Part shown: piece after piece, positions 3,385 to 14,812 of the stretch
How the letters are laid out: each line of letters opens with the position of its first letter
Position numbering within the stretch: the stretch's first letter is position 1
IMG/VR virus record: IMGVR_UViG_3300022693_000312
Span: 1 to 25,829 of that record
Direction: 5' to 3' (one strand)
Origin: a virus
DNA: 25,829 nt
Program-made: the position numbers and the translations under genes
Notes under the pieces: model-generated
Told to the model about the DNA's origin: nothing
What the model saw: the letters and a program-made list of their open reading frames with translations, nothing else
Database searches by the model: none

Positions 3385-5001
3385 ATGAGTGAGTTAACAG
3401 ACTTAGAAGCAGAGGACTTTGTAGCACCTTCCGTAGAAGAGTTACTTAATGATGTTGATTACTCTGATTTAGAAAACTATATACCTAGTGACTTTGCTTT
3501 AGAGTTTGTTAACTTTATTAAGTTAGTAGAAGGTGGTAAGACTGAGAATAAAACCCCTGTAGTACATTACAGGATGATAGATAATTTTATTCAAGATAAT
3601 GGTTTAGATACCATTAATATGTGCCACCGTGGTATAGCAAAGTCTACTCTTAAAGAATACCTAATATTATATTTAGGTGTCTATGGTGAGCTACCTAACT
3701 TCGGTAGAATACCTTATGGTTTGTATGTATCCGATAGTATGGATAATGGTGTTAAAAAGATGCGTAAATCTCTTGAATACCGTTATGAGAACTCAGACTT
3801 TTTAAAAACTTATATACCTAAAGTTAAAATTACTGATAACCGTTGGGAATTTATAAATATAGAAGGTGTTTCTACAGTATTCTCAGGGCATGGCGCAAAG
3901 ACAGGTGTTCGTGGTACTCGTGAAAACAACTCCCGTCCTGTAATAGCATTGCTGGATGACTTAATATCAGATGCAGATGCTAGGTCACCTACAGTAATTG
4001 CTGACGTAGAAGAGACAGTCTACCGAGCCATCGACCACGCACTACATCCGCAGAAACGTAAAATTATCTGGTCAGGTACTCCGTTTAACTCTCGTGACCC
4101 ATTATATAAAGCAGTTGAGTCTGGTGCATGGAATGTAAACATCTATCCTGTATGTGAGAAGTTTCCGTGTGAAGAGCACGAATTTAGGGGTTCATGGGCA
4201 GACCGTTTCGGCTACAAAGAAGTAATGCGTAGTTACATAAAAGCTAAACGCTCAGGTAAGATTGCTGACTTTAACCAAGAATTGATGCTTAGAATTATGT
4301 CTGAGAAAGAACGTCTAATTAAAGACCATGAAATTAAGTGGTACAGTCGTGACAAGCTTATGGCTGTTAAGAGTTTATTTAACTTCTATATTACTACTGA
4401 CTTTGCAACTAGCGAAAAAACTGGTGCTGACTTCTCAGTAATTAGTGTATGGGCAGTAAATAATAATAGTGATTGGTATTGGGTAGATGGTATCTGCGAA
4501 CAGCAGGATATGAGCGCCAATATTAAAGACTTATTTAGATTGGTTCAGTTATATGACCCGTTACTGGTAGGTGTAGAAATCTCAGGACAGCAGAAAGGTT
4601 TTATTAAATGGATACAAGATGAAATGCTTGTACGTAAGTGTTTCTTCAACTTGGCTTCTGATAAGAACACTGGTGAAGCTGGTATCAAACCAAACACAAA
4701 TAAATTAGAACGATTCAACGTTGTTGTTCCTTGGTTTAGGTCACTTAAGATGCACTTCCCAGAAGAGTTACGTAACTCTAAGCCAATGCAAGAAATGTAT
4801 AATGAGCTATCTCTTGTTACGTCTACTGCTTTCAAATCAAAGCATGATGATTTTATAGATACTATATCAATGTTACCTCTTATGTCTTATTATTTACCTA
4901 GCCATGATAATAAAACTACTAGTGATGAAAGCGGTGGTATATACATGGGCGAAGACGAAGATTATGAAGAAGAGTACAATATTGACTCTTATGTAGAATA
5001 G
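3385..5001 (+). CDS. terL: Terminase large subunit, packaging ATPase-nuclease (N4 gp68-like)
   Basis: This 538-residue protein drives DNA translocation into the prohead and cuts the genome. The Walker A variant CHRGIAKST is at 80-88, Walker B with the catalytic acidic pair is in VIALLDD (Asp191-Asp192), and the coupling motif IIWSGTP is at about 227-233. The RNase H-like nuclease domain supplies Asp339 in ITTDFA, Glu398 in VGVEIS and Asp488/489 in KHDDFIDT, so the metal-binding triad appears complete. The length is normal for the N4 group. An acidic N-terminal 35 residues and an acidic C-terminal tail flank the core. Translation is probably coupled to the small subunit. Confidence 0.95.
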   Translation: MSELTDLEAEDFVAPSVEELLNDVDYSDLENYIPSDFALEFVNFIKLVEGGKTENKTPVVHYRMIDNFIQDNGLDTINMCHRGIAKSTLKEYLILYLGVYGELPNFGRIPYGLYVSDSMDNGVKKMRKSLEYRYENSDFLKTYIPKVKITDNRWEFINIEGVSTVFSGHGAKTGVRGTRENNSRPVIALLDDLISDADARSPTVIADVEETVYRAIDHALHPQKRKIIWSGTPFNSRDPLYKAVESGAWNVNIYPVCEKFPCEEHEFRGSWADRFGYKEVMRSYIKAKRSGKIADFNQELMLRIMSEKERLIKDHEIKWYSRDKLMAVKSLFNFYITTDFATSEKTGADFSVISVWAVNNNSDWYWVDGICEQQDMSANIKDLFRLVQLYDPLLVGVEISGQQKGFIKWIQDEMLVRKCFFNLASDKNTGEAGIKPNTNKLERFNVVVPWFRSLKMHFPEELRNSKPMQEMYNELSLVTSTAFKSKHDDFIDTISMLPLMSYYLPSHDNKTTSDESGGIYMGEDEDYEEEYNIDSYVE

Positions 5002-10416: not shown

Positions 10417-11880
10417 ATGGCTAGTACATTTTGGATTGGCACAAACGTAAAGGTAACTAATGGTAGTGCTACTGTTGAAGTTACTTCTGGTGATGTAATT
10501 ACTAAAGTTAAAGAGAATGCTGCATTTGTAGCAAGTAACTTTAGTTTACCTTATGAAGTAGACCGTACTTATACAAACAACGGTAAAGACTACATTGTAT
10601 TGAAAGAAAACTGGCAAGGGGCTAGCGGTACTGGTTTAAATGCAGTAGCTATTACTAGTCCTGCTGGTATTGAAGAAGCACGGCAAACATTAATTAACTT
10701 AATTAGTGTATATGAAGGCTTTGCTAACGATGTAAAACCTACTGTAGAAGGTGATGCTATTGTTCAGCGTACCAGTGCAGGGCGTATTAAAACTGCCAAT
10801 GCAGTATCTTCGGATGAAGCAGTAGCTTATGGGCAGCTAGGTAGTGCTGCAACTAAAGACGTTGGGACTAATCCTAATGACTTGCTTGAATTAGGTGCAT
10901 TTGGTTTAGGTGCTAACGGCGATGATTTTTTAAGTTCTTCTTTAGACATACTAGGCAATTTGCCAACTGGCTTTTATAACACTTACAATAGCACAACAGG
11001 AATGGAGAACTTATCGGGCGACACTCTCATAGCTACTAGGTTTAATACCGATAACAACGGAAGACGTTTGCTTTTACGTAGGGACGGTATTAAATACAAA
11101 GCTCAGAATTCTGACGGTAGTTGGGGAAATGAAATCGACCTGTTACATACAGAAAATACGGGTGACGTTGTTACAAGAGACATTATATCTTCCTCAAACG
11201 ACACAACAATAGGCAGAGTACTTACAACCGTTACGGATTTTAACTTTTTCTCTTTAAGAGACTTTGGTGACTACTACCCTACTAGTGCTAATAGAGATAT
11301 AGACACAGTAGGAGCAGGGGATATTGCCCTGTACGCTACTGGAAACCAAGGGACATTCCCTTTTAACCCTAATATCGGTTTTTACCACATTGCAACCCAG
11401 AAGAACTATACGGGGTTTTCAAGAACCCAGTTTGCAACAGGGTATTTTGGCACATATGCTTCAAACGACAGCCCAACATACTCAATGCGTACTATTGACA
11501 ATTTAGGTGAGGGTTGGACGGACTGGGCTAATTTTCTACATGATAAAAATACTAACCTTAATGAGTTTGGGGGAGCAGGTGCTCACTCTGTGATTGCCAC
11601 TGGGGTTGGTCGTACAAATTCTGAAATTTTATTCTATCTGCCTATCAATTCTTTTACTGAACCTACCGGAATATCTGTCAAGGTTGGGTTTAATATTAGA
11701 GGTGAAAATAACATAGATACAGGGAACGAAAACTTAATGTTATCTAATACCTTTAGTGGCACATTAAGTTCTACTAGATATTGCGCTTTAATTGTAGGTG
11801 GCTTGGTCAATATAAACGTAGGGCAGACTTATCGCTTACAGACCGTAAACAACCTTTCTAAACTCACCGTCAACTTCTAA
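10417..11880 (+). CDS. Tail fibre / receptor-binding protein with knob-like repeats
   Basis: This 487-residue protein has an N-terminal segment (about 26-63) with DVITKVKENA and YTNNGKDYIVL, typical of fibre attachment regions, a linker AVSSDEAVAYGQLG at about 130, and then two related blocks. Each block has an L-P/D-G-YY/FYNTY strand, a loop and an ending of the type W-x-E/DW (SWGNEIDLLHTENT near 235-250, WTDWANFLHDKNT near 365-380). This resembles the pyocin-knob repeats found in tail fibres. The last 100 residues are a separate beta-rich tip. It follows the giant fibre and precedes a DUF4376-type gene, the usual fibre-assembly partner. Host-receptor binding is inferred. Confidence 0.75.
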   Translation: MASTFWIGTNVKVTNGSATVEVTSGDVITKVKENAAFVASNFSLPYEVDRTYTNNGKDYIVLKENWQGASGTGLNAVAITSPAGIEEARQTLINLISVYEGFANDVKPTVEGDAIVQRTSAGRIKTANAVSSDEAVAYGQLGSAATKDVGTNPNDLLELGAFGLGANGDDFLSSSLDILGNLPTGFYNTYNSTTGMENLSGDTLIATRFNTDNNGRRLLLRRDGIKYKAQNSDGSWGNEIDLLHTENTGDVVTRDIISSSNDTTIGRVLTTVTDFNFFSLRDFGDYYPTSANRDIDTVGAGDIALYATGNQGTFPFNPNIGFYHIATQKNYTGFSRTQFATGYFGTYASNDSPTYSMRTIDNLGEGWTDWANFLHDKNTNLNEFGGAGAHSVIATGVGRTNSEILFYLPINSFTEPTGISVKVGFNIRGENNIDTGNENLMLSNTFSGTLSSTRYCALIVGGLVNINVGQTYRLQTVNNLSKLTVNF

Positions 11881-12617: not shown

Positions 12618-12644
12618 ACTAAATAGTTTCTGGTATTAAATAAG

Positions 12645-12670
12645 AAGGCGTATTACTACGCCTTTCTTTT
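12645..12670 (+). terminator. Rho-independent terminator after the tail genes
   Basis: AAGGCGTA at 12645-12652 pairs perfectly with TACGCCTT at 12657-12664 around the loop TTAC, followed by TCTTTT. It separates the tail operon from the lysis operon. Confidence 0.85.
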
Positions 12671-12697: not shown

Positions 12698-13066
12698 ATG
12701 GTTACTCCCTCGGAAATCGTAGCATCATTACTAGGCGCAGGGGCAGTAGGCAGTTGGTTCTGGTATGATAAAAAACGCACAGATAATCGTATAGATGCCT
12801 TAGAGAAAAAACAATCCGAGCACAACACTACGCTAATCCAAATAAAAAGCACTACAATTACTGAAAGTAAATCTCGCGAAATCTCAGAAGAAGTGGCTAA
12901 ACGCACTCAAGCAGAAGTTATTAGAACACAGGCTGAGGTCGCAGAAACAAAAGCAATGGTAACCACCATACTTAACCAAGTAAACACGTTGGCTTCTAAC
13001 TTGCAAACTCATACAGCAGTAACCAAGGCGCTCCAAGAGCAAGAGAAGAACCAACAAGGTAATTAA
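12698..13066 (+). CDS. Membrane-anchored coiled-coil protein of the lysis operon
   Basis: This 122-residue protein has one N-terminal hydrophobic segment (about 6-23, SEIVASLLGAGAVGSWFW), a basic stop-transfer patch (DKKRTDNR) and then almost continuous coiled coil to residue 110. No signal cleavage site and no kinase motif is seen. TAGGAG about 7 bases upstream of ATG 12698 is a strong ribosome binding site. It is the first gene after the terminator and ends 1 bp before the receiver gene. Small membrane proteins of this shape in lysis cassettes can act as antiholins or spanin-like parts, but nothing specific identifies this one. Its pairing with the receiver gene may be functional. Confidence 0.65.
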   Translation: MVTPSEIVASLLGAGAVGSWFWYDKKRTDNRIDALEKKQSEHNTTLIQIKSTTITESKSREISEEVAKRTQAEVIRTQAEVAETKAMVTTILNQVNTLASNLQTHTAVTKALQEQEKNQQGN

Positions 13067-13067
13067 T

Positions 13068-13511
13068 ATGAAAGCTTTTATCGTAGATGATGCACCCATA
13101 ATCCTATCTATCATTGCATTTATGTTAGATAACGAAGGGATAGAATCCCACTATACAACAGAAGTAAATGATGCGTTGTACGATGAAATAGCTGAATATG
13201 CACCAGATGTAATTATTTTGGACTTGTATTTGAAAAGCCATGATGGTGTTGCTGTAGCAAAACGTATACATGAGATTGAAGACTTAAAGAATATTCCTAT
13301 TATTGCCATCTCCCACTCTCACGACCTATTCAGTAGGGTAATGCTTAACAGTAAAGACTTTGCCAACTACTTAGAGAAACCAGTAGTTAAAGAGAAGTTG
13401 TTACCTTTGGTTAATACCTATGGCAGTATTGGTAAGATACTTAACGTAGGGAAACAATTACTAAAAGGTAATACTGATGACAGCGATACTAAGCCTGATA
13501 ACAAAACATAA
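13068..13511 (+). CDS. Stand-alone CheY-like response-regulator receiver domain
   Basis: This 147-residue protein is a full receiver domain with no output domain. The acidic pocket is Asp7-Asp8 (FIVDDAP), the phospho-acceptor is Asp52 in VIILDLYL, the switch Ser is Ser82 in IIAISHS, and the conserved lysine is Lys104 in YLEKPV, with Tyr101 near the switch-aromatic position. A 30-residue charged tail follows. In bacteria such domains take phosphate from histidine kinases and signal by protein contact. AAGGT lies 8 bases before ATG 13068. The gene lies between the membrane coiled-coil gene and the i-spanin, overlapping the latter by 35 bp, so it is co-expressed with the lysis genes. All catalytic residues are kept, so it is probably functional; partner and purpose are unknown. 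Confidence 0.9.
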   Translation: MKAFIVDDAPIILSIIAFMLDNEGIESHYTTEVNDALYDEIAEYAPDVIILDLYLKSHDGVAVAKRIHEIEDLKNIPIIAISHSHDLFSRVMLNSKDFANYLEKPVVKEKLLPLVNTYGSIGKILNVGKQLLKGNTDDSDTKPDNKT

Positions 13512-13953
13512 AAAGATTGCCAGTACTTTAGGTATACTAATAGCACTTACTACTCTAGTTAGTGCTTTGTATGCTGGATACAACAATTTAAAAAATAGCT
13601 GGTATGAGAGAGGTGTTAAAGACACTGAACTCGTTTATAAACAAGCTTTAATTGATGCTAGAGAACAATATGATGTAGAGCTTAAAGCAAGTCTTGAGCT
13701 TTACAAACAACAACTTACTGCTGACTTTGATGAAGAACTCACAAGAGTAAAAGCAGAGCAAGTTATAGATAATAAAGTCTCTAAGGAAATTGAATATGTT
13801 TATAAAGAAATCATTATACCTGCTGAGTGTAATACTGTTCCTACTAAGTTTGGTAAGTTGTTCAACGAAGCCATCCACACCATCAATAGCAACATTGCCC
13901 CCAATAAACAAAGCAGAGTTGATACCTTCAATTCCCAACTCTTTACTTACTAA
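13477..13953 (+). CDS. i-spanin (Rz-like inner-membrane lysis protein)
   Basis: This 158-residue protein has a single N-terminal membrane segment (about 14-34) and then a long charged coiled coil (45-110) with SWYERG next to the membrane, the normal Rz arrangement. The C-terminal part has C-TVP-KFGKLFNEAI, a motif frequent at the end of Rz-type proteins. With the overlapping lipoprotein it would bridge the inner and outer membranes and fuse them after the wall is degraded. It starts within the end of the receiver gene with AAAGG about 8 bases upstream. The assignment rests on topology, motif and neighbours. Confidence 0.85.
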   Translation: MTAILSLITKHKKIASTLGILIALTTLVSALYAGYNNLKNSWYERGVKDTELVYKQALIDAREQYDVELKASLELYKQQLTADFDEELTRVKAEQVIDNKVSKEIEYVYKEIIIPAECNTVPTKFGKLFNEAIHTINSNIAPNKQSRVDTFNSQLFTY

Positions 13954-14122
13954 GTGCAGGGAAGCTTACCCATTACAGGTGTTCCAAGAAACGGACACTC
14001 TCCAAGATTTGTATGCGACTATTCTCTTTAACTTGGGTCAAGTACAGAAGTGTTATAAAAAAGACGAAGCTTTGGTAGATAAGGTACAGGAACGTGATAG
14101 AGCGATTAAAGAAATCCTTTGA
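13796..14122 (+). CDS. o-spanin (Rz1-like outer-membrane lipoprotein)
   Basis: Read in another frame and starting inside the i-spanin gene, this 108-residue protein has a lysine-led hydrophobic signal and the lipobox LVSC with Cys22 as the lipidation site, followed by a proline/serine-rich stretch. This is the pattern of Rz1-type o-spanins, which form the outer-membrane half of the spanin complex. ATG 13796 is preferred to TTG 13790 because AAGGA at 13783-13787 is 8 bases upstream. It overlaps the i-spanin by 158 bp and extends 169 bp beyond, an overlapping rather than fully embedded architecture. The C-terminal 60 residues are helical and longer than in classical Rz1. It overlaps the next gene by 29 bp. 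Confidence 0.85.
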   Translation: MFIKKSLYLLSVILFLLSLVSCSTKPSTPSIATLPPINKAELIPSIPNSLLTKCREAYPLQVFQETDTLQDLYATILFNLGQVQKCYKKDEALVDKVQERDRAIKEIL

Positions 14123-14372
14123 TTGGGTTACCCATAATAATTTACGTGAGATAGCCACTACACTTAACTTTTTCAATCTTATTGAAATAGGTGTGGTCGT
14201 TTGGGTACTAATTGAGTTACATCGTTTACTTAACTGGTACATGGATAACATGACAATAGAGCATTTTAACGGTGTAGCATTCTGGGGAGCTATTGCAGGT
14301 GCTATTACTGGTTTACTGGGTGCATTAAAGTTTATGCATGATACGTTGAAAGAACGGAGAAAAATGCAATGA
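14094..14372 (+). CDS. Holin-like protein with two membrane segments
   Basis: This 92-residue protein has two hydrophobic segments, about 27-46 (NLIEIGVVVWVLIELHRLL) and 61-81 (glycine/alanine-rich, GAIAGAITGLLGAL), and a basic C-terminus LKERRKMQ. The size, two helices and basic tail are typical of class II-like holins. It starts at GTG 14094 with AAGG 9 bases upstream, inside the o-spanin gene, and its stop overlaps the endolysin start (ATGA). Such close coupling to an endolysin supports a holin. A phage wall-release helper of another type is the alternative. Confidence 0.75.
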   Translation: MIERLKKSFDWVTHNNLREIATTLNFFNLIEIGVVVWVLIELHRLLNWYMDNMTIEHFNGVAFWGAIAGAITGLLGALKFMHDTLKERRKMQ

Positions 14373-14812
14373 TTTTATATCAACATTTTAGAGAGTTAAT
14401 TGAAGATACTACCTCAGATTTACGTTTGAGCAAACCTGAGTTCACTATGGCTTGCAGTATGCTAGTAGCCCATGAGTCTCTTGGCGGTAAGTATTTACGA
14501 CAACACCCTACTGGTGAAGGTCTGGGAGTAATTCAAATGGAACGAGCTACTCACCGTGATACATGGCAGTACTGCGACAATATAGAAAAGTATGCTGCTC
14601 TGTTAGGCTATACAGAAGATGTAAATAAACTTAAGTACGATTTACGGTACAATATTTTTATGGCTAGGATGCGTTTTATAATGGATGTTAATCCATTTCC
14701 TAAAGACGAGCGTGGTATGGCGGAGTACTTAAAGAATTATTGGAACAGTCCTTTAGGTGCAGCAACCGCAGATAAGTACTTACGCGATTATTATAATTGG
14801 ATAAAAGGCTAA
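14369..14812 (+). CDS. Endolysin: lysozyme/transglycosylase-like muralytic enzyme
   Basis: This 147-residue cytosolic protein cuts peptidoglycan glycan strands. The motif LVAHESLGGKYLRQ places the catalytic glutamate at Glu36, followed by GLGVIQMERATHRDTW at 51-66; these match a family of phage lysozyme-like transglycosylases in which the second motif lines the active cleft. There is no signal peptide or wall-binding domain, so it needs a holin, and one precedes it. N4 itself uses an unrelated N-acetylmuramidase at this place (gp61), so this is a replacement of the enzyme at a conserved position. The ATG overlaps the holin-like stop by 4 bp. Confidence 0.85.
   Translation: MILYQHFRELIEDTTSDLRLSKPEFTMACSMLVAHESLGGKYLRQHPTGEGLGVIQMERATHRDTWQYCDNIEKYAALLGYTEDVNKLKYDLRYNIFMARMRFIMDVNPFPKDERGMAEYLKNYWNSPLGAATADKYLRDYYNWIKG

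Follow-up and report, generated by a model that had tools for sequence, protein, structure and literature searches.

The subject of this analysis is a small open reading frame (ORF) at positions 13068 to 13511 of a 25,829-nucleotide stretch of viral DNA (IMG/VR record IMGVR_UViG_3300022693_000312, positions 1 to 25,829; hereafter, the window), which encodes a response-regulator receiver next to spanin genes. The window is a 25.8-kb piece of a Schitoviridae phage near Alteromonas phage A5, with which it shares 94.1% DNA identity over the 2.3 kb that surround the receiver. The order of features is tail fibre, DUF4376 chaperone, terminator, helical protein (hereafter, the coil), receiver, i-spanin, o-spanin, a protein with two transmembrane segments (TMs), and endolysin. 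From the terminator onwards, these are:

12644..12665, + strand: intrinsic terminator with a 9-pair stem and a T-rich tail, at the boundary between the chaperone gene and the coil-receiver-lysis operon.
12698..13066, + strand: helical (coiled-coil) protein of 122 amino acids with a probable N-terminal membrane anchor, the putative partner of the receiver (AlphaFold model; counterparts upstream of other receivers).
13068..13511, + strand: single-domain response-regulator receiver of 147 amino acids with an ATG start (PF00072, AlphaFold model, Foldseek).
13477..13953, + strand: i-spanin (Rz-like; phrog_4297, 3.4e-8) with one TM at residues 14-32, overlapping the receiver gene by 35 bp.
13796..14122, + strand: o-spanin (Rz1-like lipoprotein with an LVSC lipobox), embedded in the i-spanin gene and extending beyond it.
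14094..14372, + strand: protein with two TMs (24-42 and 60-78), basic at both ends, just upstream of the endolysin gene.
14369..14812, + strand: endolysin according to the A5 annotation (phrog_3108, 9e-28, a family of unknown function).

The receiver matches PF00072 (Response_reg) over residues 4-114 with 61.9 bits (E value of 7.5e-17; cut-off, 30.2 bits). Its AlphaFold (AF2) model, computed like the other structure predictions from alignments of the window and contig loci only, has a mean local confidence (pLDDT) of 85.3, a predicted TM-score (pTM) of 0.80, and the usual alternating beta-alpha order; the best Foldseek matches are RR468, VicR, DivK, and PhoB, with a TM-score of 0.88 to RR468. 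The phospho-switch is present with the acidic pair D7 and D8, the phospho-acceptor D52, S82, the aromatic Y101, and K104, followed by P105. Past residue 116, Pfam and the AF2 model revealed no output domain, only the end of an unusually long helix alpha-5 (residues 108-134) and a disordered tail. An earlier note, made from the letters alone, had read the frame as a complete CheY-like receiver with D7, D8, D52, S82, and K104 but without an output domain, overlapping the i-spanin gene by 35 bp; the profile search and structure model that it had named as checks, together with the coordinates, bear out each of these points. The gene order given there holds on the spanin side (phrog_4297 and lipobox) and for the upstream helix, which AF2 models as one long helix from residue 4 to 121, but the membrane anchor of that helix is weaker than claimed, with a Kyte-Doolittle maximum of 1.19 compared to 2.3 to 2.9 in the counterparts of phages R8W, R9Y2, and PB15.

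In its fold, its phosphorylation site, and the absence of an output domain, the protein resembles CheY, DivK, and Spo0F; it differs from them in being phage encoded, in having a fixed partner gene, and in its extended alpha-5. In sequence and structure, CheY is no nearer to it than PhoB-, VicR-, or DivK-type receivers. The cREC domain of jumbo phages (PMC7824862) is also a receiver-like domain of phage origin, but it is divergent and tied to NAD/ADP-ribose enzymes, whereas the receiver of the window is tied to lysis genes. Compared to A5, the receiver gene has 18 synonymous and 5 non-synonymous differences, corresponding to a ratio of non-synonymous to synonymous substitution rates (dN/dS) of 0.063, and the coil gene has a dN/dS of 0.068. 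Both genes are under purifying selection, and therefore, the receiver frame is not a chance ORF. The same comparison gave 0.33 for the tail fibre and 0.52 for the i-spanin, the DNA of which is shared with the o-spanin.

The gene is not confined to the relatives of A5. Stand-alone receivers are present in five unrelated Alteromonas phage lineages:

Lineage i, Schitoviridae: A5 and the window.
Lineage ii, Myoalterovirus: V22 and the marine contigs L011, L012, and L013, with receiver, i-spanin, o-spanin, a two-TM gene, and M15 or DUF5675.
Lineage iii: PB15 and XX1924, with a phrog_937 'hemolysin' coil, receiver, M15 endolysin or DUF5675, and a three-TM holin.
Lineage iv, Foturvirus: R8W, H4/4, and contig L028, with a phrog_1356 class II holin (R8W and H4/4), a one-TM coil, and receiver.
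Lineage v: R9Y1-3 and contigs L022-L025, with a one-TM coil, receiver, and a GH108 endolysin.

The receiver of A5 (gp11) is 96.6% and that of V22 (gp30) 44% identical to the receiver of the window, in the same gene order. R8W gp48, described as 'PhoB' (PMC8228385), H4/4 gp44, the 'response regulator' of PB15 and XX1924, and the 'hypothetical' gp12 of R9Y are likewise receivers that follow a small one-TM gene beside lysis genes; they fall into two clades other than that of A5 and V22. The label 'PhoB / DNA-binding' of R8W gp48 is a misnomer, since a receiver domain alone was detected, and it would be one for the protein of the window as well. Directly upstream of the receiver, all loci inspected have a gene for a helical protein of about 100 to 125 amino acids, usually with one TM. 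In all five lineages, the receivers adjoin spanin, endolysin, or holin genes, and they lie within lysis cassettes in the window, A5, the V22 types, PB15/XX1924, R8W/H4-4, and R9Y. Coil and receiver genes overlap by 4 bp (ATGA) in PB15, XX1924, R8W, H4/4, R9Y2, and the contigs related to R9Y and R8W. The chance of such a placement is roughly 1e-4 if the three receiver clades are taken as independent and 6e-8 if the five lineages are, both being post hoc estimates. The receiver of PB15 is annotated from an internal ATG (L003:3992-4013); its true start is likely at 3992, which gives the ATGA overlap and restores the first beta strand.

An alignment of 14 phage receivers has an identity of about 20% and only ten invariant columns, among them D7, D8, D52, Y101, and K104; all 14 have Ser or Thr at position 82. 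These values bear on the possibility that the receiver is a structural partner acting independently of phosphorylation, whose fold and extended alpha-5 (108-134) would only stabilise or localise the coil. Receiver domains can act as dimerisation or scaffold parts, and the long helix would suit such a role, but retention of the acidic pair, Asp52, Ser/Thr82, Tyr101, and Lys104 in every sequence at that level of divergence is hard to explain without phosphorylation, and we regard a purely structural role as improbable. The receiver tree resolves three well supported clades (A5/V22, 97/97; PB15/XX1924, 99/98; R8W/R9Y, 98/96), and a single origin of the three is possible, at a support of 84/83. 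A direct bacterial ancestor was not found in 296 genomes of one order, where the best matches were mostly longer, multi-domain frames, and further scans for relatives of the PB15 and Foturvirus types gave nothing new. Several other candidates were set aside: weak tblastn matches in Listeria, Staphylococcus, Enterococcus, Salmonella, Acinetobacter, and faecal 'phage' records, probably bacterial contamination of assemblies; 'PhoP' of Stenotrophomonas phage Bhz63, a two-gene arrangement of regulator and partner that lies outside a lysis cassette; and Pseudomonas phage sp. OQ658365 and Komp_PAO1_1 (antisense), which were judged not comparable.

The coil accompanies the receiver throughout. All tblastn matches to coil proteins in the phage collection lie beside a receiver, and no coil gene without a receiver was found there, although tblastn is a weak test for short, diverged proteins. 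The coils of R8W and R9Y2 have homologous C-terminal halves (E value of 0.005). Judged from these matches and this homology, coil and receiver appear to move as a unit. The coils of PB15 and XX1924 have matches (1.8e-16 and 1.2e-12) in phrog_937, a phage 'hemolysin' family. In R8W, the pair follows a holin of phrog_1356, to which the N4 lysis regulator gp62 also belongs. From hydrophobicity and charge, the partner is predicted to lie at the inner membrane and to extend its coil into the cytoplasm.

On its other side, the operon is set apart from the host-recognition genes by the terminator, which has a fold z-score of -4.0 in the window and an equivalent hairpin in A5 (L001 4573-4600; z-score of -3.3); a scan of the region gave three terminator-like sites, compared to 2.0 expected in shuffles. 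The loop is inverted (TTAC in the window, GTAA in A5), and the stem is kept. This boundary is relevant to the published view of the gene: A5 gp11 and V22 gp30 are named 'CheY-like protein' (PMC10579305, PMC7289586) and were listed as shared host-recognition genes and class II auxiliary metabolic genes (PMC10579305). Accordingly, the receiver could be a CheY mimic or an auxiliary gene that alters host motility or physiology as part of a host-recognition module, and in A5, V22, and the window it does lie next to the chaperone and the tail fibre. However, it is no nearer to CheY than to other receiver types, chaperone homologues are found in A5 and V22 only, and the receivers of three more lineages lie beside lysis genes. 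The receiver thus does not travel with tail fibre and chaperone. In the published A5 genome, the neighbours gp10, gp12, and gp13 have no assigned function, whereas our analysis identifies gp12 as an i-spanin whose gene contains an embedded o-spanin; this assignment, the restricted occurrence of the chaperone, and the terminator in between argue for placing the receiver on the lysis side, and a role in host recognition is unlikely.

Where would the phosphate come from? No histidine kinase or HPt above the cut-off was detected in 13 phage records, each of which has one receiver, a result that rests on six or seven complete genomes, the 25.8-kb piece of the window saying little. Therefore, the host or small donors would have to supply any phosphate, and the absence of a kinase in these records fits a receiver that listens to a host kinase. 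A sub-threshold HATPase_c match in A5 is its rIIA-like protein; A5 encodes rIIA- and rIIB-like proteins (OP481051 53726-56287), possibly a further link to lysis inhibition.

A receiver that stands alone, has a full phosphorylation site, and lacks both an output domain and a phage kinase above the cut-off could also be a decoy. It would block a host histidine kinase, such as one for envelope stress or phage response, or draw off its phosphate, and so silence a late host response; linkage to lysis genes would then reflect late expression only. PIT4 of a Pseudomonas phage, which is reported to act on host two-component systems (PMC10714779), is a precedent. The decoy leaves unexplained why the upstream coil gene is constant, why the ATGA overlaps are so tight, and why the pair keeps to the neighbourhood of holin and endolysin genes and not to that of early genes, and we consider it rather unlikely, if the most credible of the alternatives.

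We favour a reading in which the receiver and the preceding helical gene form a two-gene lysis-control module, the receiver, phosphorylated by the host, acting on the coil and thence on holin triggering; we put its probability at about 0.5. Five-lineage recurrence, linkage of the pair, conservation of the switch residues, the terminator, the phrog_937 and phrog_1356 context, and the absence of a kinase argue for it. Late in infection, Asp52 would take phosphate from host histidine kinases or acetyl phosphate, the Ser82-Tyr101 switch would alter the alpha4-beta5-alpha5 face, and the switched receiver would either bind its partner at the cytoplasmic coiled coil or release it. Since this protein would lie next to the holin in the inner membrane, the moment of holin triggering may shift, by which lysis timing would be tied to the state of the host. 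The recurrence of the pair among lysis genes suggests that a host signal may influence the time of cell opening. Of the earlier proposal, that the phage listens to or drains a host kinase to adjust lysis timing or the host envelope response, the link to lysis stood: the homologues are not scattered but all lie in lysis cassettes, and Asp52, the loss of which had been named as a test, is kept in 14 of 14 receivers.

The cassette of phage N4 (gp63-gp62-gp61-gp60; PMC12642591) offers a parallel. It has been dissected by experiment, is subject to lysis inhibition, and corresponds to the cassette of the window in its position between tail and portal genes. It comprises a membrane protein with a cytoplasmic helical region that sets lysis timing (gp63), a two-TM regulator (gp62), and spanins; point changes within the cytoplasmic part of gp63 shift the time of lysis (PMC12642591). 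The annotated N4 lysis genes gp60-gp63 are, in contrast, without a response-regulator receiver, and the proteins of the window do not convincingly resemble gp62 or gp63 in sequence. The 'Receiver domain' of the N4 paper is the authors' name for a region of gp63 and a coincidence of wording (PMC12642591).

Several points weigh against a lysis-control module. The coil types of A5/V22, R8W/R9Y, and PB15 are very divergent and not demonstrably homologous to one another, and the PB15 coil has its TM at the opposite end. In the window, the lysis roles of the two-TM and endolysin genes are assigned from position and the A5 annotation: the product of 14094..14372 had no lysis-family match in profile searches and is, from its position, a candidate class II holin or lysis regulator, and the search with the endolysin (14369..14812) gave no relative of solved structure. 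The tail-fibre/lysis interval often acquires accessory genes, and position alone is therefore weak evidence. The link between receiver and lysis is drawn from gene order and sequence. More tentatively still, the membrane-associated coil and host-phosphorylated receiver may constitute a signal-gated holin timer, by which a host two-component signal would set the lysis time and which exchange would have carried into at least five lineages of Alteromonas phages.

Lysis timing is usually viewed as a clock of holin accumulation with few inputs, such as superinfection in T4 and phage quorum sensing at the level of transcription. A signal-gated timer of this kind, if real, would be, as far as we found, the first two-component input into the phage lysis machinery described at the protein level. 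The receiver gene as such had already been published as 'CheY-like' (PMC10579305, PMC7289586), in a metabolic or host-recognition role and not in lysis, but our literature search found no described lysis-linked receiver and no description of a conserved receiver-coil pairing inside differently built lysis cassettes. Asp52, present in several such cassettes, offers a mutable site for asking whether phages read host two-component signals to time lysis, and a probable role emerges for marine phage genes that at present carry the labels 'auxiliary metabolic', 'PhoB', or 'hypothetical'.

Some further observations concern the neighbouring genes. The o-spanin at 13796..14122 has a weak match to phrog_456 (Rz-like spanin; 0.004) and is unannotated in A5, and its embedded arrangement recurs in V22, L011, and L013. 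In V22-type phages, a permuted papain-like amidase gene is inserted between chaperone and coil (L002:5211-5621). DUF5675 proteins (L002:8080-8487; L013, +2314 from the receiver start; L004:2438-2836) stand where the nearest relatives have an M15 endolysin (L011:9507-9896; L003:4387-4743). This replacement, seen twice, in the V22 types and in PB15/XX1924, points to DUF5675 as a peptidoglycan hydrolase or another endolysin substitute. Contigs L027 (PBFM01000045, binned as Neomarinimicrobiota) and L028 (NHBR02000063, Muricauda TMED12) resemble R9Y-like and Foturvirus-like phages, respectively, and are apparently mis-binned. Finally, the tail fibre of the window (10417-11880) is strongly diverged from that of A5 (dS, 1.37; dN, 0.45), whereas the adjacent coil-to-lysin segment keeps about 94% identity, a contrast to be expected if the fibre has been exchanged or has diversified.
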